Shown here piece by piece: positions 5,125 through 22,178 of a stretch of DNA of 64,000 bases. The position numbers and the translations under genes were made by a program. Every line of letters starts with the position of its first letter. Positions within the stretch are counted from its first letter, which is position 1. The DNA lies in NCBI GenBank assembly GCA_947471985.1, contig CANIZL010000015.1, positions 1 through 64,000 of the forward strand, read 5' to 3'. The DNA is from Verrucomicrobiota bacterium. Lineage in GTDB: Bacteria; Verrucomicrobiota; Verrucomicrobiia; Limisphaerales; UBA9464. Below the pieces are notes generated by a model that saw nothing but the letters and a program-made list of their open reading frames with translations, was not told the DNA's origin and made no database searches.

Positions 5125-5358
5125 CGAGGCGGAGCATAACGACTGCGTTCGCTCTGGAAACAGGCGAGTGTGCCTTCCAAACAAAAAGTATTAGAAACGG
5201 CGACTGTTTGAATTCCCGGCAGTGTGGGTGAGTCTGGCAGACTTCCCCGAGCACCCAGGCATTGGGGGATTTCCGTGGTCAGATTCCAAGGGGTGGTTAT
5301 CATCCGACACCGCCGGCACTTTTTGGGGATCCTCCTGAAGGGAGCTGGCTTATCGCGT

Positions 5359-7878
5359 TTGAATCGGAATCGCACTGAGGGAAGGGATCGCCGGAATCGC
5401 CGAAACAAGGCGTCCGGTGGCGTTATTCGCCTGTTTCTGGCGAGCCTGCTGGCGGGGACGGCCCAGGGCGCGGACCTGCCGAAGGAAGCGACATCGGCGG
5501 AGTCCGGCACCGCCTTGGTGACCAAGTATTGTCTGGAATGCCATGGCGATGGGGCGCACAAAGGCAATTTCGCCCTGGACGACCTGATGCAGGCGGATCG
5601 GGCGCAGGATCGATCCGCGGAATGGACGAAGGTCTGGAAGACGGTGCGGCATGAATTCATGCCCCCGGCCGGAGCGGCCCGCCCTACGCCGGCGGAGCGG
5701 CGGACGCTGAGCCGCTGGCTGGAAGAGACGCGCTTGGGAATCGACCTCACGCGGCCGGATCCGGGCCGGGTCACCGTGCGCCGGCTGAACCGGATGGAGT
5801 ACGAATATACGATCACCGACCTCTTTGGCGTCAATCTGAGCGCCGATCAGGACTTCATGAGTGATCGCTCGCTGGAGAGCCTGAAGTTGCGCGACCGCCT
5901 CCCGCCGGACGACACGGCCTTTGGGTTCGATAACAACGGGGATTTTCTCAGTCTATCGCCGGCCTTGTTGGACAAGTTCTTCAACCTGGCGGAGTACGTG
6001 GTGGATCACGTGATTTCGGTGAATGGTCCCCAGCACCCGCAAACGGATCTCGGGAAGGCCGGGTTCAAGGTGCAGCGCGAAGAGGCGACCCGTCGCGTGG
6101 AGCAGTTGCTGGAATTCGAAGTGGCCCGTCCGGGGAACTACCGCTTGGAGGTCCAGTTCACCGCGGGGAATTTTGCCGAAATCGCGGGCACCTTTGAATT
6201 TCAGTTTCAATCCGATGACCAGGTGTTGGCGCGGGATGAGGTGTTGATCGGCGGGCATCGGACCCACCGCTATGGGGGCGACGTGACGCTCGCCGCCGGG
6301 CGTCATCGCGTGCAGATCACGACGAAGCCGATCCACGCGGATGCCAAGGGGAAACTGAACTACCTGGAATTCCGTCCGCGCCTGCGCCTGGTCGGACCGG
6401 TGGGGCCTCCGGGGGTGGGAGTTTATGAATATCCGGAACCGCATCGGCAGATTTTCTTTCAGGGTGATGCTCCAGCGGAGGCACCGGCGCGGGCCAAGTA
6501 CGCCCGGGCAGTCGTGCAGCGGGTGGCAGATCGGGCCTTCCGTCGGCCGGCGGACTCGCGGACGTTGGATCGGCTGACCGAGATCGTGCTTCAAAACCCC
6601 TCCTTTGAGGCGGGCGTTGGCCAGGCACTGACAGCGATTCTGTCGTCGCCCAAATTTCTCTTTCGGGCCGAGCAGCAACCCACGCCGGACGATCCCCGGG
6701 CGATCCATCCGATCGATGAATACGCTTTGGCGTCGCGCCTTTCGTATCTGTTCTGGTTGAGCTTACCGGACGCCGAATTGACCCGTCTGGCGGAGCAGGG
6801 GTTGCTGCGCCAGAACCTGGCGGCACAGGTGCAACGCCTGCTGGCGGATCCACGGTCCGAACGATTCTTCGAGGATTTTCCGGGCCAATGGTTGCGCACG
6901 CGCAATGTGCTGATGACGGCGATCTCCGTGGGGGACGGTCCCTTGAATCCCGTGCGTTTCGCCATGAAACGGGAAACGGAACTGTTGTTCGAGCACATTG
7001 TCCGGGAGGATCGCGACCTGTTGGAATTGCTGACTGCCGACTACACGTATGTGGATCGGAAGCTGGCGGAGTTTTACGGGTTGAAGAATTTCGCCGGGGA
7101 AGGATTCCAGCGGATCGCACTGCCGCCGGAGAGCCATCGGGGCGGCGTTTTGACGCACGGCAGTTTTCTGGTCTCGACTTCCAATCCGAACCGGACCTCG
7201 CCGGTGAAACGCGGGCTCTTCGTTTTGGAAAACCTTCTGGGCATCGAGATTCCGCCGCCACCGGCGAACATTCCGCCGCTGGATGCGGCTCAGGGCGGCG
7301 GCACCGCGCTCGCCACGGTGCGGGAACAACTGGCGGCGCATCGGCAGAACAAATCGTGCGCGGCCTGCCACGCGCACTTTGATCCGATCGGCCTGGTGCT
7401 GGAGAATTTCGATCTGGTGGGACAATGGCGCGAACGGGAGAACGGTGCCGCGATTGAAACCCGCGAGACGTCCATCGGGGGCGAGCCCCTGACCGGCGTG
7501 CCGGACCTGCGGAATCTGCTGGGGGTGCGCAAAGCGGAGTTCTATCGGTGCGTCACCGAGAAGCTGCTGACATATGCCCTGGGTCGCGGATTGGAGCCCG
7601 CGGACGCGCGGTCGGTCGACGGCATTGCGGACCAGGTGATGGCCGGCAACGGCCGTTTTTCGACGCTGCTGCAGGCGGTGATTGCGAGTCCGGCCTTCCA
7701 ACTGCGTCGCGGCGATGCCGGTGAGGTGAAGTTGGCTCCACGGAGTTCCGTGCCGGTGGCACCGCCGCCGGAGCAACGCAAAGGCCGCCGACCCAAACCG
7801 CCGGTGACGTCGCAGTTGTCGGGTACCACCAATCGCACGCCGGAAAAAGCCGCCGCCCCACTTTCGGAAAAACCCTAA
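5359..7878 (+). CDS. DUF1587/DUF1595/DUF1592/DUF1588/DUF1585 c-type cytochrome protein
   Basis: Exported haem protein of the planctomycete/verrucomicrobial type. There is no upstream ATG in frame. I choose the TTG at 5359, which gives an Arg-rich n-region and hydrophobic stretch (RLFLASLLAGTAQGA); GTG codons at 5293 and 5224 are alternatives. An N-terminal haem site CLECH lies just after the signal peptide, followed by DUF1587 (LNRMEYEYTITDLFGV), DUF1595 (AFRRPAD), DUF1592 (ILSSPKFLFRAE), DUF1588 (NRTSPVKRGLFVLENLLG), a second haem site CAACH, and DUF1585 (LLTYALGRGLEP). The C-terminus is proline- and charge-rich. It is followed 6 bp later by its usual partner, a DUF1552 protein. The molecular function of the family is not established. 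A redox role in extracellular polymer breakdown is only inferred. Confidence 0.88.
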   Translation: MNRNRTEGRDRRNRRNKASGGVIRLFLASLLAGTAQGADLPKEATSAESGTALVTKYCLECHGDGAHKGNFALDDLMQADRAQDRSAEWTKVWKTVRHEFMPPAGAARPTPAERRTLSRWLEETRLGIDLTRPDPGRVTVRRLNRMEYEYTITDLFGVNLSADQDFMSDRSLESLKLRDRLPPDDTAFGFDNNGDFLSLSPALLDKFFNLAEYVVDHVISVNGPQHPQTDLGKAGFKVQREEATRRVEQLLEFEVARPGNYRLEVQFTAGNFAEIAGTFEFQFQSDDQVLARDEVLIGGHRTHRYGGDVTLAAGRHRVQITTKPIHADAKGKLNYLEFRPRLRLVGPVGPPGVGVYEYPEPHRQIFFQGDAPAEAPARAKYARAVVQRVADRAFRRPADSRTLDRLTEIVLQNPSFEAGVGQALTAILSSPKFLFRAEQQPTPDDPRAIHPIDEYALASRLSYLFWLSLPDAELTRLAEQGLLRQNLAAQVQRLLADPRSERFFEDFPGQWLRTRNVLMTAISVGDGPLNPVRFAMKRETELLFEHIVREDRDLLELLTADYTYVDRKLAEFYGLKNFAGEGFQRIALPPESHRGGVLTHGSFLVSTSNPNRTSPVKRGLFVLENLLGIEIPPPPANIPPLDAAQGGGTALATVREQLAAHRQNKSCAACHAHFDPIGLVLENFDLVGQWRERENGAAIETRETSIGGEPLTGVPDLRNLLGVRKAEFYRCVTEKLLTYALGRGLEPADARSVDGIADQVMAGNGRFSTLLQAVIASPAFQLRRGDAGEVKLAPRSSVPVAPPPEQRKGRRPKPPVTSQLSGTTNRTPEKAAAPLSEKP

Positions 7879-7884
7879 CCACTT

Positions 7885-9243
7885 ATGCGCCTACAACGTC
7901 GTTCCTTTCTGCGCGGACTCGGAGTCTGCGTCGCGCTGCCCACGCTGGAATCGATCCTGCCCGTGACGCGCGTGCTGGGTGCTGCGCCTGCGACGCCCGC
8001 CACCACGGCCAATGGCATGCCGCTCCGCATGGGGTTCGTGGCCTTCGCCAACGGCTCTCACTACGCCCAATGGGTGCCGAAGGGAGAAGGACGGGACTAC
8101 GAACTGAACGAAGGCTTCCTCGCCCTGCGGGGATTGAAGGACAAGTTTCAGATCATTACCAACCTGGCGCACGATGCCGCCAATAGCTGGGGTGATGGCC
8201 CCGGTGACCATGCGCGCTCCGGGGCGTCGTTTTTGACCGGCTGCCACGCGTGGAAAACGCTGGGATCGAAGTTGCAATTGGGCTTGTCGGTGGACCAGAT
8301 CGCGGCGCGTCAGGTGGGACAGCTGACGCGGTTGGACTCCCTGCAATTGGGCGTCGAAGGCGAACGGATGTACGGATCCTGCGACACCGGTTATCCGTGC
8401 GCCTACCAGTACAATATTTCCTGGGCCTCGGAGTCCCTGCCCCTGGCGCCCGAGCCCAATCCCCGGATCGTGTTTGAAAAACTTTTCGGCGGAAGTGGCG
8501 GGAAGGAACAGGAAGCCGCCCGGAAACAACGCATGGCCCGCCGGAAGAGCGTGCTGGACTTCGTGCTTGATGATGTTCGGACGCTGAATCGGTCCTTGGG
8601 CGCGAATGACCGACGGAAGGTGGACGAGTACCTGGCGGGCGTTCGGCAGCTCGAGCAGCAAATCGAAAAAGCGGAGCGGTTCAAGACGCCCGAGCCCGGC
8701 ACCGGAATGGCGCGGCCCGCGGGCGTTCCGGAGGACCATGAGCAGCACGTCGACTTGATGTATGACCTGATGGCACTCGCGTTTCAGACGGATGCCACCC
8801 GGGTGATCAGCTACTGTGTCGCCCCTGAGGGCAGCAATCGCCCCTTCCTCAATCTGGGCATTCCGGAAGGACACCATTTTTTGACGCACCACCAGGGCAA
8901 TATGGAAAAGATCCAAAAGGTTTCCCAAATTGAGCGGTGGTATATGGAACGGCTCGCCCGATTTCTGCGCACGCTCGACACGATGAAAGACGCGGATGGT
9001 ACCTCGGTCCTGCACAACTCAATGATCGTGTACGGCTGCGGGCTCGGCGACGGCAACCGACACAACCACGATGAACTTCCGGTGGTGCTGGCGGGTGGCG
9101 GTGGAGGCACGCTGCATCCCGGACAACACGTCAAACTCAAAACCTCCACGCCGATGACCAACCTCTATGTGTCGATGCTGCAGCGGATGGGCGTGACGGC
9201 GGACCGGGTGGGGGACAGCAGCGGTCGGCTGGAAGAAATTTGA
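7885..9243 (+). CDS. DUF1552 family exported protein
   Basis: A 452-residue protein with an N-terminal twin-arginine-like leader (RRSFLRGLG) followed by a hydrophobic stretch, so probably exported folded. The body is typical DUF1552: an FVAFANGSHYAQW block near the start, a HARSGASFLTG block, and a C-terminal YGCGLGDGNRHNHDELP block. That layout recalls the alkaline-phosphatase-like fold seen in the related DUF1501 family. The ATG lies 6 bp after the stop of the DUF1592 gene, so the two are almost certainly co-transcribed; this pairing is widespread in Planctomycetota and Verrucomicrobiota. No enzymatic activity is known to me. Confidence 0.9.
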   Translation: MRLQRRSFLRGLGVCVALPTLESILPVTRVLGAAPATPATTANGMPLRMGFVAFANGSHYAQWVPKGEGRDYELNEGFLALRGLKDKFQIITNLAHDAANSWGDGPGDHARSGASFLTGCHAWKTLGSKLQLGLSVDQIAARQVGQLTRLDSLQLGVEGERMYGSCDTGYPCAYQYNISWASESLPLAPEPNPRIVFEKLFGGSGGKEQEAARKQRMARRKSVLDFVLDDVRTLNRSLGANDRRKVDEYLAGVRQLEQQIEKAERFKTPEPGTGMARPAGVPEDHEQHVDLMYDLMALAFQTDATRVISYCVAPEGSNRPFLNLGIPEGHHFLTHHQGNMEKIQKVSQIERWYMERLARFLRTLDTMKDADGTSVLHNSMIVYGCGLGDGNRHNHDELPVVLAGGGGGTLHPGQHVKLKTSTPMTNLYVSMLQRMGVTADRVGDSSGRLEEI

Positions 9244-17188: not shown

Positions 17189-20100
17189 ATGCTCCCCACC
17201 GTGACTTCACGCTTCGGTTCCCGACTCGATGCCCCGAGCGCCCGGACAGATTTGCGCGTCGTCGATCTGACGCGCGTTCAAGAGCTTTTCCGGCTGACCC
17301 TGACGGCCCGCTGGGTGGACCGCGTGGAAATGGAGTTGGTCAACCGGGGGGAGGGTTTCTTCCATGTCGGCGGCGCCGGCCATGAAGCCACCGCGACCCT
17401 GGCGGCTCATTTGTTGCCCGCCGATTGGCTGCATCTGCATTATCGGGATAAGGCGTTGATGCTGGCCCGGGGCGTGCCGGCGGCCCAATTTTTCCACAGC
17501 CTGTTGTGCACGGCGGCCTCCCATTCGGCGGGCCGCCAGATGAGTGCGCATTTGAGCGCTCCCGAACTGCACCTGCTCAGCCTCGTCGGGCCGGTGGGCA
17601 ACAATGCGCTGCAGGCCGTGGGGGTTGCCCACGAAATCGGGGCCCGGACCGATACGTCGACCTCCGCTCCACGGCCCTTGGTGGTGTGCGCGGTGGGGGA
17701 CGGCACCACCCAGCAGGGCGAGGTTTTGGAGGCCATTGCCGAAGCCGTTCGGGCGCGGCTCCCGGTGCTGTTTCTGGTGGCCGACAATGGGCTGGCCATC
17801 TCCACCCGGACCCGGGGGCAAACCTTCTTCGATCTCCCGTCCGGCCCGGCCGCGGAATTCTATGGCTGTCCGATTCACCGCCTGGAGGGCCGGGATCCCT
17901 TGGCCTGCGATGCGGCCTTTGCGGGAATTGTGGGGGGAATTCGTGCGGGCGGCGGGCCGGCGCTGGTGGTGATGCGAGTGGAGCGACTGACGCATCATAC
18001 CAACGCGGATGACGAACGTCTTTACCGTTCCGATCCGGAGCGGGCGACGGCGCGGGCCGCTGGGGATCCTTTGGAGGTCCTGCGGGAGGCGTTGGTATCG
18101 CGCGGGGTGCGACCTGCGGAGTTGGCGGAGCTGGAAGTCGAAATTGAAGCCACGCTCCGGGCGGCCGCGGCCGAAGCCTTGGTGGCGGCAAATCCCCGGG
18201 CTAATTTGGATGCCCGGCCGCCGTGGAAAGAACGCTTTGCCCGACCGGGAACTGCATCCACGCCGCCCCCGATGGGGCAGACGCACACGCTGTTGGAGTC
18301 GATGAAGGCGGTGCTGCGAAACCAGTTGGGCGCGGATGGCCGGGTCAGTTTGTTGGGGGAGGACATTGAGGATCCCAAAGGGGACGTTTTTGGGCTGACG
18401 CGGGGACTGAGTCAGGCCTTTCCGGGGCAGGTGCGGAACGCGGCGTTGTCGGAGTCCACCATCGTCGGCGTCGGTATCGGCCGGGCCCTCGCCGGCGGGC
18501 GGCCGGTGGCCTTCATCCAGTTCGCGGATTTTCTGCCCCTGGCGTACAATCAGATCGCCTCGGAGCTGGGGTCGCTGTGGTGGCGCAGCTCGGGCGCCTG
18601 GAGTGCGCCGGTGATTCTCCTCGCCCCCTGTGGCGGCTATCGACCCGGCTTGGGACCGTTCCATGCCCAAACGTTTGAGAGCGTTTATGCCCACGTGCCC
18701 GGACTGGATGTTTGCATGCCCAGCACGGCGGAGGATGCCGCGGGATTGCTGAACGCGGCGTTTGCCGGCGGACGGCCCACCCTCTTCCTGTACCCGAAAC
18801 TGCTGCTCAATGATGCGGCGGTGGCCATGAAACAGGCGCCGTCGGAAGCCTTCCTGGAACCGGGTCGCGCCCGACGGGTGACGACGGGCGCGGATCTGAC
18901 GGTGGTTTCCTGGGGCGCGACGGTGCCGCTGTGTTTGCGCGTGGTGCGCTTTTTGGAGACGGCGGGGTTATCTGTGGAATTGCTCGACCTGCGCACGCTT
19001 TCCCCTTGGGATGCCGATGCGGTGGTGGCCAGTGCCGAGCGCACGGGAAAACTGCTCGTGGTGCATGAGGACAATCTCACCTGTGGTTTCGGCGCGGAGG
19101 TCCTCGCCACGGTGGCGGAGCGATCGGCCGTCGCGGTGCGGGCGCGGCGGGTCACGCGGCCCGACACGTATGTGCCGTGCAACTACGTGAACCAGCTCGA
19201 GGTGCTCCCAAGTTTTCCGCGAATTTTGACGGTGGCAGCGGAATTGTGCGGTCTGGAGCTGAATTGGATCCATGGGAACGAAGCGGCGGAGGCGGTGTAT
19301 GTCCTGGAAGCGGTCGGCTCGAGTCCGGCGGATCAAAACGTAAAGGTGCTGGCCTGGCGGGTGCCGCAGGGAGCGAACATCGTGGCAGGCGATCTGCTGG
19401 CGGATTGTGAGGCGGACAAGGCGACGTTTGAACTGCGGGCGCCGGAGACCGGACGGATTTTTGATCTGATGACGCCCGGGGAAAGTGTCCCGATCGGCAC
19501 GCCAATCGCCCGAATCCAGCGGCTGGCCGCGCATGTCGCGCTGCCGAAGCGGGTGCCGGTGGAGCCCCGACCCGAAGTGCGGGGACGCCGGGCGGGAGCG
19601 GTGGTGGTGGCGGAACCGGTGATGTCGGTTCCGAAGCCCTCGGCCACGGTGATCATTTCCGGGATTGCCTCGGCTTCCGGCGGGCGGCGGGTGAGTTCGG
19701 CCGAAATTGCCGCGCGGTTTCCCGGGCGCACGGAAGCGGACGTCATTCAGCGCACGGGGATCCAGTCGCGTCCGCAGTTGGCGGCCGACGAATCGGTTTT
19801 GTCGCTGGCCACCCGGGCGGCGCGGGACGTGCTGCGGGCGGAAGGGCTGACGTTGGCCGACGTTTCGTCGCTGATCGTCAGTACCAGCTCGCCGTTGAGC
19901 ATCAGTCCCAGTCTGGCCTGTCGCCTGCAGCATGCCTTGGCCGTCGATGGTCCGGTCAAGGACCTCCCGGCCTACGACATTCTCGCCGCCTGCAGCGGTT
20001 ACCTCTATGCGCTGCAGCAGGCATTTGATGCCTGTCAGAGCCGACCCGACTCGACGATTCTCGTGGTTACGGCGGAGGCAATGAGCCGCTTCGTGGACCC

Positions 20101-20644
20101 GGGGGATTTCGATACGGCCATCGTTTTTGCGGACGCGGCCACCGCGACCCTGGTGCATGGATCGTCGGCCAAATTGCCCGGGCGGGCGCGGCTGCAGCTG
20201 CATCGGCCGGTGCTAAGTGCCCGCGGAGAAGACGGTTCCGTGCTCAATCACGGCCGCTTGGAATGCCCGGGCAGCGACGGTGGACGCGGCGCGTGTTCGC
20301 CGGTTTACATGGATGGGATCAAAGTGTTTCCGCTGGCGGTCCGGCAGATGTTGGCGGTCTTGGAGCAGGCCTGTGCGGAGAGCCGGCTGAGCGTGCGCGA
20401 TCTGGATGTGATCATCCCGCACCAGGCGAATGGACGGATTATTGAAGCCGCGCGGCATCGATTGAAGGACCGGCCGGAGCGGGTGTTGAATCGGGTGACC
20501 CACGCCGGCAACAGCAGTAGCAGCACGATTCCGCTGGTGTTGGCCGAACTGCTCCGGGACGGGCATCCGGGCGGCAAGGCGGGACTCTGTGCGTTCGGCG
20601 CCGGGTTTACGTTTGGTGCGGCGGTGGCGGAACTGCTGCCGTAA
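17189..20644 (+). CDS. fusion: 2-oxoacid dehydrogenase E1alpha + E1beta + lipoyl domain + ketoacyl-ACP synthase III
   Basis: One 1151-residue chain. Residues ~30-340 are E1alpha: LHYRDKALMLARGVP and the thiamine-diphosphate motif GDG (170-172) to N200. Residues ~365-690 are E1beta, with the cofactor-activating Glu in LSE (E422) and the His of VVHEDNL (H626). Residues ~705-780 are a biotinyl/lipoyl domain with EADKA, so K744 is the probable lipoylation site. Residues ~818-1151 are a FabH-like KAS III with a complete triad: C935 (ILAACSGYLYAL), H1078 (IPHQAN), N1108 (HAGNS). All active-site residues I can check are present and there is no frameshift. No E2 acyltransferase domain (HxxxDG) or E3 is present. 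The parts suggest oxidative or non-oxidative production of an acyl primer for fatty-acid or polyketide-like chain initiation; branched-chain primers are the analogy. Direct acyl-lipoyl to KAS transfer is inference. Confidence 0.93.
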   Translation: MLPTVTSRFGSRLDAPSARTDLRVVDLTRVQELFRLTLTARWVDRVEMELVNRGEGFFHVGGAGHEATATLAAHLLPADWLHLHYRDKALMLARGVPAAQFFHSLLCTAASHSAGRQMSAHLSAPELHLLSLVGPVGNNALQAVGVAHEIGARTDTSTSAPRPLVVCAVGDGTTQQGEVLEAIAEAVRARLPVLFLVADNGLAISTRTRGQTFFDLPSGPAAEFYGCPIHRLEGRDPLACDAAFAGIVGGIRAGGGPALVVMRVERLTHHTNADDERLYRSDPERATARAAGDPLEVLREALVSRGVRPAELAELEVEIEATLRAAAAEALVAANPRANLDARPPWKERFARPGTASTPPPMGQTHTLLESMKAVLRNQLGADGRVSLLGEDIEDPKGDVFGLTRGLSQAFPGQVRNAALSESTIVGVGIGRALAGGRPVAFIQFADFLPLAYNQIASELGSLWWRSSGAWSAPVILLAPCGGYRPGLGPFHAQTFESVYAHVPGLDVCMPSTAEDAAGLLNAAFAGGRPTLFLYPKLLLNDAAVAMKQAPSEAFLEPGRARRVTTGADLTVVSWGATVPLCLRVVRFLETAGLSVELLDLRTLSPWDADAVVASAERTGKLLVVHEDNLTCGFGAEVLATVAERSAVAVRARRVTRPDTYVPCNYVNQLEVLPSFPRILTVAAELCGLELNWIHGNEAAEAVYVLEAVGSSPADQNVKVLAWRVPQGANIVAGDLLADCEADKATFELRAPETGRIFDLMTPGESVPIGTPIARIQRLAAHVALPKRVPVEPRPEVRGRRAGAVVVAEPVMSVPKPSATVIISGIASASGGRRVSSAEIAARFPGRTEADVIQRTGIQSRPQLAADESVLSLATRAARDVLRAEGLTLADVSSLIVSTSSPLSISPSLACRLQHALAVDGPVKDLPAYDILAACSGYLYALQQAFDACQSRPDSTILVVTAEAMSRFVDPGDFDTAIVFADAATATLVHGSSAKLPGRARLQLHRPVLSARGEDGSVLNHGRLECPGSDGGRGACSPVYMDGIKVFPLAVRQMLAVLEQACAESRLSVRDLDVIIPHQANGRIIEAARHRLKDRPERVLNRVTHAGNSSSSTIPLVLAELLRDGHPGGKAGLCAFGAGFTFGAAVAELLP

Positions 20645-20705: not shown

Positions 20706-22130
20706 CTAACTGATCAACTCCCGGCGCACCTGTCCGTGGATATCCGTGAGTCGGAAATAGCGACCTTGGTATTTAAAGGTGAGATCTTCGTGATTGAGCC
20801 CGAGTTGATGGAGCAGGGTGGCTTGAATGTCGTGCACGTGGACGCCGTTTTCCGCGATATTGTAGCCGAAGTCATCGGTCTGACCGAAAATCGTGCCGGC
20901 CTTCACGCCACCGCCCGCCATCCACAAGGTGAAGCAGCGCGGATGGTGGTCCCGCCCGTAGTCGGTGGCGGTGAGTTTACCCTGGGAATAGTTGGTGCGA
21001 CCAAACTCGCCGCCCCAGACCACCAACGTGTCGTCCAGCAGGCCCCGTTGTTTCAAATCCTGGACCAGCGCGTAGCCGGCGCGATCGACGTCGGCCGCCT
21101 GGCGGCGAATACCTGAGGGCAGTCCGCCGTGGTGATCCCAGCCCGGATGGTAGAGTTGAATGAACCGGACGTTCCGTTCGGCGAGCCGGCGGGCGAGCAA
21201 ACAGTTGGCGGCAAAAGTGCCGGGTTTGCGCGCTTCGGGTCCGTAGAGTTCGTAGACACTTTCGGGCTCGCCGCGGGTGTCCATGACCTCGGGAACGCTG
21301 GTCTGCATACGGTAGGCCATCTCGTATTGGGCGATGCGGGAGTTGATCTCCGGATCCCCCACGTCCTCGAATTGCAGCGTCTGCAGTTCCGCCAATCGAT
21401 CCAGCATTTGTCGGCGGCTGGCCCCGGAAATGCCCTCGGGATTTTTGAGAAACAGCACCGGATCCACTCCGGAACGAAAGAGCACGCCCTGGTGCAGGCT
21501 GGGTAGGAATCCATTGCCCCACAGCCGCGAATACAGGGGTTGATCGATGCGATCCTTGGAAACCAGTACCACAAAGGTGGGCAGATTTTCATTCGCACTG
21601 CCCAGTCCATAACTGAGCCACGCGCCGAAACTCGGTCGACCGGCGATCTGCGAGCCCGTCTGGAAAAAGGTGATGGCCGGATCGTGATTGATGGCCTCGG
21701 TGTTGACCGACCGGATGAAGCAGAGGTCATCGGTCATGCGGGCGGTCCACGGCAGGATTTCGCTGACGGTCATGCCGGACTGGCCGTGGCGCGCAAATTT
21801 GAAGATCGAACCCGCCATGGGCAGGGCCGCCTGATTCGCCGACATGCCGGTCAGGCGTTGCCCCCGCCGAACGCTGTCGGGCAGGTCCTCGCCGTTGCGT
21901 TGATTCAGGACGGGTTTGTAGTCGAACAAATCGAGCTGCGACGGACCGCCGCTCATGAAGAGATAGATGATCCGTTTGGCCCGGGGAGCGAGGTGCGTGG
22001 CGGGCAGGATGCCGGCGAAGGGATTGGGGACGGCACCCGGAGTGGCGGCGCGTCCCTGGTTCAACAAGCCCATCAAGGCGGTGCCACCGAGGCCCAGTCC
22101 GAAGCGACTGAAGAACTGGCGGCGATCCAT
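20706..22130 (-). CDS. DUF1501 family exported protein
   Basis: A 474-residue protein beginning MDRRQFFSRFGLGLGG, a twin-arginine-like leader; a start 27 bases upstream would add nine residues. DUF1501 features: RIIYLFMSGGPSQLDLFDYKP near the N-terminus, FGAWLSYGLGS, a VRFIQLYHPGWDHH block and WGGEFGRTNYSQGK before a DHHPRCFTLWMAGGG stretch, giving the metal-rich alkaline-phosphatase-superfamily look. It follows the DUF1553 gene by 48 bp on the same strand, the standard PVC pairing. Convergent with the fusion gene. Biochemical role not established. Confidence 0.92.
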   Translation of the reverse strand: MDRRQFFSRFGLGLGGTALMGLLNQGRAATPGAVPNPFAGILPATHLAPRAKRIIYLFMSGGPSQLDLFDYKPVLNQRNGEDLPDSVRRGQRLTGMSANQAALPMAGSIFKFARHGQSGMTVSEILPWTARMTDDLCFIRSVNTEAINHDPAITFFQTGSQIAGRPSFGAWLSYGLGSANENLPTFVVLVSKDRIDQPLYSRLWGNGFLPSLHQGVLFRSGVDPVLFLKNPEGISGASRRQMLDRLAELQTLQFEDVGDPEINSRIAQYEMAYRMQTSVPEVMDTRGEPESVYELYGPEARKPGTFAANCLLARRLAERNVRFIQLYHPGWDHHGGLPSGIRRQAADVDRAGYALVQDLKQRGLLDDTLVVWGGEFGRTNYSQGKLTATDYGRDHHPRCFTLWMAGGGVKAGTIFGQTDDFGYNIAENGVHVHDIQATLLHQLGLNHEDLTFKYQGRYFRLTDIHGQVRRELIS

Positions 22131-22178
22131 GGCGAAATTGACGTGATGACAAAACATGGCGGGTGATGGTTGGTGGGT

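Follow-up and report, generated by a model that had tools for sequence, protein, structure and literature searches.

Why should a 2-oxoacid dehydrogenase E1, a lipoyl domain and a FabH-like condensing enzyme be joined in a single polypeptide, and where would the lipoyl arm of such a protein deliver its acyl group? In textbook branched fatty-acid synthesis E1, E2 and E3 convert a 2-oxoacid to acyl-CoA, and the acyl-CoA is then used by FabH. The ORF at positions 17189..20644 of the window (the whole stretch of 64,000 nucleotides that was analysed; this and all features below lie on the + strand) encodes 1151 aa with the order E1alpha-E1beta-lipoyl-KAS III (FabH-type). Judging from its sequence and those of its relatives, we consider it probable (about 0.62) that the fusion primes type II fatty-acid (or fatty-acid-like) synthesis in a single chain and independently of CoA, most likely from a branched 2-oxoacid.

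Results

The ORF starts with ATG and its translation in the window contains zero internal stops. The preliminary description had read four parts in one uninterrupted frame, with neither an E2 acyltransferase nor an E3 in the chain, and a Pfam search of the product agrees on both counts: every domain family that it had expected (E1_dh, Transket_pyr, Transketolase_C, Biotin_lipoyl and ACP_syn_III, here with ACP_syn_III_C) was matched above the curated cut-offs, and no E2 (PF00198) or E3 domain was found in the 1151-aa protein. The AF2 model has a mean pLDDT of 85. The exact start codon is uncertain because residues 1-23 are predicted to be disordered and the alignment of most homologues begins at about residue 25-33. 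An assembly accident or a broken frame is ruled out by full-length single frames at 80 loci, some of them in single-contig assemblies (G119 and G422).

A search for the same architecture in other Verrucomicrobiota, as had been suggested, yielded at least 80 full-length, single-frame homologues with 46-64% identity, both in this phylum and in Planctomycetota, Spirochaetota, Lentisphaerae/Kiritimatiellia and Thermoleophilia. The genome-wide tests were done as family searches, and the census counts of E1-lipoyl-KAS and E1-lipoyl-E2 forms are lower bounds. The fusion is widespread but patchy, since only 2 of the 149 sampled Planctomycetota genomes carry it. Two apparent split or partial forms (in G153 and G091) are fragments at contig ends, and in a third (G555) the fusion is complete, its linkers being longer. 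No description of the E1-lipoyl-KAS architecture was found in the literature searched, nor is it mentioned in passages of the Coxiella and verrucomicrobial-symbiont papers. The conservation counts given below refer to 81 sequences, with L037 cut by a contig end.

The E1alpha domain (17294..18181; residues 36-331, PF00676 E1_dh, 1.8e-33) contains the TPP/Mg motif GDG(170-172)...N200 (17696..17788; G170 in 81/81, D171 in 76/81 and N200 in 81/81), GRQM and HHTNADD..YR motifs, and the invariant H270 (17996..17998; 81/81), which in an alignment to human BCKDH is the equivalent of H291alpha. In E1beta (18308..19198; Transket_pyr 374-541, 8e-20; Transketolase_C 559-670, 4e-27), E422 and H492 are each present in 81/81 fusion sequences, and H492 aligns with the reductive-acylation histidine H146beta' of human BCKDH. 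With these three domains, the TPP motif, the activating Glu and the His pair, the protein belongs to the alpha2beta2-type 2-oxoacid dehydrogenase E1 enzymes. The active-site residues named beforehand lie where they had been placed, with G170, N200, E422, K744, C935, H1078 and N1108 essentially invariant in the 81 sequences, except that H626 (His in 76/81, Gln in 5) is not one of the reductive-acylation histidines, which are H270 and H492.

The lipoyl domain (19304..19516, approximately residues 706-776; PF00364 Biotin_lipoyl 718-776, 1e-9) carries an EADKA motif with the predicted lipoylation site K744 (19418..19420), a Lys in 81/81 sequences. Its flanks across the homologues are mostly D/T/S and A/S and not the biotin-type M, and by its fold, modifiable Lys and non-biotin motif the domain is a lipoyl domain. 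It is connected to the KAS by a flexible and poorly conserved linker (19517..19648, residues 777-820; conservation 0.33) with pLDDT values below 50 at residues 783-787 and 801-817 of the AF2 model.

The KAS III (FabH-like) domain (19649..20635, residues 821-1149; PF08545/PF08541) is matched by ACP_syn_III at residues 929-992 (6e-17) and ACP_syn_III_C at residues 1062-1148 (5e-22), and it superimposes on FabH 6x7r with a Foldseek TM of 0.92 (by target length). The nucleophilic C935 (19991..19993) is found in 80/80 sequences and the catalytic N1108 (20510..20512) in 79/79, and the same invariance (80/80) holds for the catalytic His, the pantetheine-contact Asn (N1081) and the equivalent of the ACP-docking R249 within H1078-Q-A-N-G-R1083 (20420..20437). 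The pantetheine-contact R36 and N247 and the ACP-docking R249 of FabH are retained. It is known that W32 and R151 of E. coli FabH sandwich the CoA adenine (PMC4606726). In the fusion these positions are occupied by D851 (19739..19741) and F974 (20108..20110), with Trp in 0/81 and Arg in 0/80 fusions as opposed to 35/41 and 33/41, respectively, among 41 stand-alone FabH-like proteins from the fusion-carrier genomes, 28 of which keep both residues, 40 at least one and a single one neither. The fold, the Cys-His-Asn triad and the docking Arg are thus present and the W32/R151 sandwich is absent. The acyl-pocket gate F87 is replaced by S906 (19904..19906; Thr/Ser in 79/80). The domain scores 208 bits with the curated FabH model TIGR00747 (cut-off 292) and 237 bits with PRK09352 (cut-off 249), and the fusion KAS domains form a single clade (support 0.97). 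A minority of stand-alone KAS III proteins also lack W32 or R151 singly, which counts against the starter-module reading.

A bypass of CoA is favoured because the FabH CoA-adenine residues are missing from every fusion KAS domain and largely kept in the stand-alone proteins; with this part of the coenzyme A pocket lost, chains would probably be begun directly from 2-oxo acids without acyl-CoA. A relative at the order level, L139 (genome G610, a single MAG contig), bears on the same point. It has a PF00198 E2 acyltransferase (1.5e-29) at the KAS position of the same E1-lipoyl chassis, is 53% identical to the window protein over residues 22-777 (E1-lipoyl), and in a tree of the E1-lipoyl part branches within the fusion family; among the matches listed it is the only one with an E2 on this chassis. 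Since E2 stands here instead of KAS, the KAS sits at the point in the chain at which E2 would normally accept the acyl group of lipoate.

The chain could conceivably still follow the ordinary pathway, with a housekeeping E2 moving the acyl group from its E1-lipoyl part to CoA and its KAS using the acyl-CoA, so that fusion would provide co-expression or proximity only. E2 genes are indeed present in 20/20 carriers in one search and 17/19 in another, but apart from the lost adenine contacts and the E2-for-KAS swap in L139, no E2 was detected in the carrier MAGs G036 and G574 (possibly incomplete genomes), and the single E2 of G422 adjoins an ORF that by inspection resembles AceE. We therefore regard this pathway as very improbable. 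In G422 and G073, of which the E2 locus was examined in the former, the fusion is the sole E1_dh protein detected. Of the 20 carriers searched, all have lipA and 19 have an E3 above cut-off. Another KAS III is encoded in 37/38 carriers, which rules out the fusion as sole FabH or sole initiation enzyme.

In the window, the neighbours of the fusion gene are an ABC transporter, PNPase and DUF1501, and a scan of neighbours revealed no PF00198 E2; those recurring in relatives resemble, by inspection, seryl-tRNA synthetase, aconitase, sialic-acid synthase and response regulators. A surrounding biosynthetic gene cluster is ruled out, none being seen in the window or recurring among relatives. In one Pirellulales clade a BMC shell-like gene adjoins the fusion, the only recurring neighbour that is possibly related.

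These surroundings bear on whether the fused KAS III might rather make a specialised product, by using another acceptor or by acyl transfer only, as had been considered in the preliminary description. The KAS III relatives DarB, PqsD and CerJ have such roles, the carriers possess other cellular FabH proteins, the BMC-like gene could be read in this sense, and clusters on Streptomyces plasmids have an E1 gene directly upstream of a megasynthase that starts with lipoyl-E2-ACP-KS. The idea nevertheless seems unlikely, because the neighbours resemble housekeeping genes, the docking Arg and condensation triad are invariant, and the distribution tracks phylum-level clades, as core metabolism does.

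As to the 2-oxoacid, the E1alpha motifs resemble those of branched-chain enzymes, a signature that rests on homology and makes a branched substrate most likely. The best PDB match of E1alpha is the branched-chain E1alpha 1um9_A (123 bits), with 79 bits for human BCKDH and at most 66 bits for PDH; that of E1beta is 1um9_B (189 bits). The same CoA-free chemistry could instead start from an unbranched or unusual 2-oxoacid such as pyruvate (acetyl starter), giving ordinary straight chains or an odd starter. In line with this, the top NCBIfam model for E1alpha is of the PDH type, although far under its cut-off (143.8 versus 411), and E1beta scores equally with Geobacillus-type PDH and human BCKDH. 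The known Pirellulales fatty acids are mostly straight-chain, and iso fatty acids are not known as a feature of the Pirellulales carriers; a branched product is not obvious there, which counts against a branched starter. The E1alpha scores with the GRQM and HH..DD..YR motifs, the small KAS gate, the additional KAS III in nearly all carriers and the AceE-like ORF next to E2 in G422 make an unbranched or unusual substrate unlikely, if slightly less so than a specialised product. Pontiellaceae MAGs carry the fusion, iso-even fatty acids have been reported from Pontiellaceae, and Kiritimatiellae isolates produce i-C12/14/16/18 fatty acids (PMC7356697).

Discussion

On balance, we favour the view that KAS III has replaced the E2 acyltransferase and that lipoyl-lysine is its direct acyl donor, which would make the fusion a previously undescribed class of enzyme, present in several phyla, for CoA-free one-enzyme initiation of (branched) fatty acids. 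E1alpha and E1beta with TPP would decarboxylate a 2-oxoacid, most likely a branched one (2-oxoisovalerate or related), and reductively acylate the lipoyl group on K744. The arm would then swing on its flexible linkers to the KAS III, where Cys935 would receive the acyl group that E2 otherwise passes to CoA. Condensation with malonyl-ACP, the most likely acceptor, by Cys-His-Asn chemistry would give 3-oxoacyl-ACP for the FAS II cycle, presumably towards membrane lipid, and a separate housekeeping E3 would reoxidise the dihydrolipoyl group. The self-contained, CoA-skipping module that had been suggested at the outset gains in plausibility from the W32/R151 loss in every fusion KAS, the L139 variant, the carriers with no other detected E1_dh, and the lipoyl synthase and E3 genes.

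If this is true, there would be a second, CoA-free route for starting fatty-acid chains, and the ketosynthase cysteine would be a new kind of acyl acceptor for lipoate. It would help account for iso fatty acids in Kiritimatiellota and other such bacteria, and engineering would gain a compact starter module.

With the branched-chain 2-oxoacid dehydrogenase E1 (Thermus thermophilus 1um9, human BCKDH) the fusion shares the E1alpha/E1beta folds, the TPP motif, the reductive-acylation histidines and the GRQM/HH..DD motifs. It differs from the corresponding complex in having alpha and beta in a single chain, a lipoyl domain joined to E1 and not to E2, and a KAS III attached in place of any E2 or E3. 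From FabH (beta-ketoacyl-ACP synthase III), with which it has the fold, triad, HQAN and docking Arg in common, the KAS is set apart by its missing adenine contacts, small gate, sub-threshold scores and position C-terminal to an E1-lipoyl unit. L139 has the same E1alpha-E1beta-lipoyl chassis but ends in an acyltransferase, which normally yields acyl-CoA. The Streptomyces plasmid megasynthase (NZ_CP061282, NZ_CP109590) likewise has E1, encoded by an adjacent E1alpha/beta gene, near a lipoyl domain and a condensing enzyme that are linked in one chain, and the arrangement apparently supplies an assembly line. In contrast to the fusion, however, its E1 is a separate chain, it uses E2, ACP and a PKS-type KS, and the system is a modular NRPS/PKS that presumably makes a secondary metabolite.

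Domain architecture and distribution of the fusion

The gene at 17189-20644 (+) is one open frame encoding 1151 aa, in which Pfam finds, in this order and all above the curated cut-offs, E1_dh, Transket_pyr, Transketolase_C, Biotin_lipoyl, ACP_syn_III and ACP_syn_III_C. This confirms the uninterrupted frame with all four parts (E1alpha, E1beta, lipoyl domain and FabH-type condensing domain, KAS III) and every family predicted by a preliminary description; the E2 and E3 domains said there to be absent were indeed not found by a Pfam search of the whole protein. An AlphaFold2 model built from 70 aligned sequences shows high confidence in every domain (mean pLDDT 85), with a disordered N-terminus and linkers, and Foldseek matches its parts to branched-chain/pyruvate E1 and FabH (TM ~0.9 by target length).

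A protein-based scan of genome contigs yielded 368 related stretches. Nearly all of the best 80 match the query over its full length (L037 is cut by a contig end), and the MAGs or genomes of these 80 are mainly labelled Verrucomicrobia, Planctomycetes (mostly Pirellulales), Spirochaetes, Lentisphaerae/Kiritimatiellia/Pontiellaceae and Thermoleophilia, with one cyanobacterium and one betaproteobacterium. Each of the 80 is one open frame and the fusion also occurs in the single-contig assemblies G119 and G422, which argues against a frame broken in the genome. The search elsewhere in Verrucomicrobiota that the preliminary description had proposed was positive in 37 of 388 sampled genomes of the phylum; the figures are 10/116 for the window's order (one of the ten being an E2 variant, L139), 6/149 for Spirochaetota and 2/149 for Planctomycetota. 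Clades in the fusion tree are phylum-like. One record titled Bifidobacterium breve (L032) groups with Thermoleophilia MAGs and is probably misnamed.

Catalytic residues and loss of CoA contacts

Across an alignment of 81 sequences there is next to no variation at G170 and N200 of the TPP motif, E422, K744, C935, H1078, Q1079, A1080, N1081 and N1108. The active-site set originally proposed thus holds for the TPP motif, E422, K744 and C935/H1078/N1108. H626 is His in 76/81 but is not among the histidines that correspond to human BCKDH H291alpha and H146beta'; these are H270 and H492, both 81/81.

FabH stacks the CoA adenine between Trp32 and Arg151 and contacts the pantetheine arm through Arg36, Asn210 and Asn247 (E. 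coli numbering; PMC4606726). In the fusions, position 32 is D, E, A, G or K (Trp 0/81) and position 151 is F, P, L, Q or others (Arg 0/80). Stand-alone FabH-like proteins, 40 from carrier genomes plus that of the window genome, 41 in all, have Trp32 in 35 cases and Arg151 in 33; 28 keep both, 12 lack one and a single protein lacks both. Since Trp32 and Arg151 are absent from the fusions, the CoA-specific contacts are gone, while Arg36 (74/81), Asn247 (80/80) and the ACP-docking residue Arg249 (80/80) are retained, and with them the contacts to ACP and to an arm of the pantetheine or lipoyl type. Residue 87, the Phe gate of E. coli FabH, is Thr/Ser in 79/80 fusions, which suggests space for a bulky acyl group.

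An E2 in the place of the condensing domain

The single-chain E1alpha-E1beta-lipoyl-E2 protein of L139 (G610:C43:1-5000, one MAG contig from the window's order) is 53% identical to window-protein residues 22-777, and an E2 catalytic domain (2-oxoacid dehydrogenase acyltransferase, PF00198, 1.5e-29) replaces KAS III at its C-terminus. In the E1-lipoyl tree it lies inside the fusion family (clade of 53 tips, support 0.99), its exact neighbours being poorly resolved (support 0.21). In the fusions, then, KAS III stands at the position of the enzyme to which lipoate normally passes its acyl group. The E2 motif of L139 reads DHRVVNG, with Asn in place of the Asp of canonical E2s (DHRxxDG).

Substrate and cellular context

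The fusion E1alpha scores 123 bits with the Thermus branched-chain enzyme, 79 with human BCKDH and at most 66 with PDHs, and shares GRQM and HH-x-x-(S/A)DD-YR motifs with branched-chain enzymes; E1beta does not discriminate between E1 types. Cultured Kiritimatiellae make the iso-even acids i-C12, i-C14, i-C16 and i-C18 (PMC7356697), products that require a starter of the isobutyryl type, and the fusion is present in Pontiellaceae MAGs. On these grounds our best guess is that the substrate would be 2-oxoisovalerate or a related branched acid.

Carriers could both synthesise and recycle the lipoyl arm, because they possess lipoyl synthase (20/20 genomes searched) and lipoamide dehydrogenase (above the model cut-off in 19/20). 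A further KAS III is present in 37/38 carriers, the exception being a MAG. G073 and G422 (one contig) have one E2 each, and no E1_dh protein other than the fusion was detected in either; by sequence inspection, the ORF upstream of the G422 E2 resembles AceE. Three E2s were found in the window's genome, and its only other alpha/beta-type E1 (L002/L135) carries on inspection not GRQM but GGSMHLF, a motif like that of PDH/acetoin enzymes.

The fusion's neighbours in the window are an ABC transporter, PNPase and DUF1501, and no biosynthetic cluster surrounds it there or at the relatives' loci. The separate DUF1501 protein (20706-22157) and a pair of PSD/PSCyt cytochrome-domain and HXXSHH (DUF1552) proteins (5224-9243) are typical of Planctomycetes/Verrucomicrobia. 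In a Pirellulales clade (L048, L059, L065, L067, L071, L073, L076) a gene for ~209 aa lies only a few bases downstream of the fusion gene and in the same orientation; two BMC microcompartment-shell domains were identified in the L073 protein, the one representative scanned, with which the others group in sequence comparison. This layout suggests an operon.

Proposed mechanism and comparison with known systems

With parts and conservation as observed, the best reading is that the E1 part would decarboxylate a branched 2-oxoacid and acylate lipoyl-K744, whose arm would pass the acyl group on to C935, where it would condense with malonyl-ACP, free E3 reoxidising the lipoate; transfer, acceptor and product are what we infer. 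The components belong to known families; as far as we have checked, it is their combination that is new, together with the CoA-free initiation it implies, the architecture being undescribed in the openly licensed literature searched, though possibly described elsewhere. A loose parallel may be seen in two Streptomyces plasmid clusters (L148, NZ_CP061282.1; L149, NZ_CP109590.1), where an E1alpha/beta gene lies directly upstream of an NRPS/PKS megasynthase with the N-terminal order lipoyl-E2-ACP-KS, an arrangement that looks like a 2-oxoacid-fed loading module.
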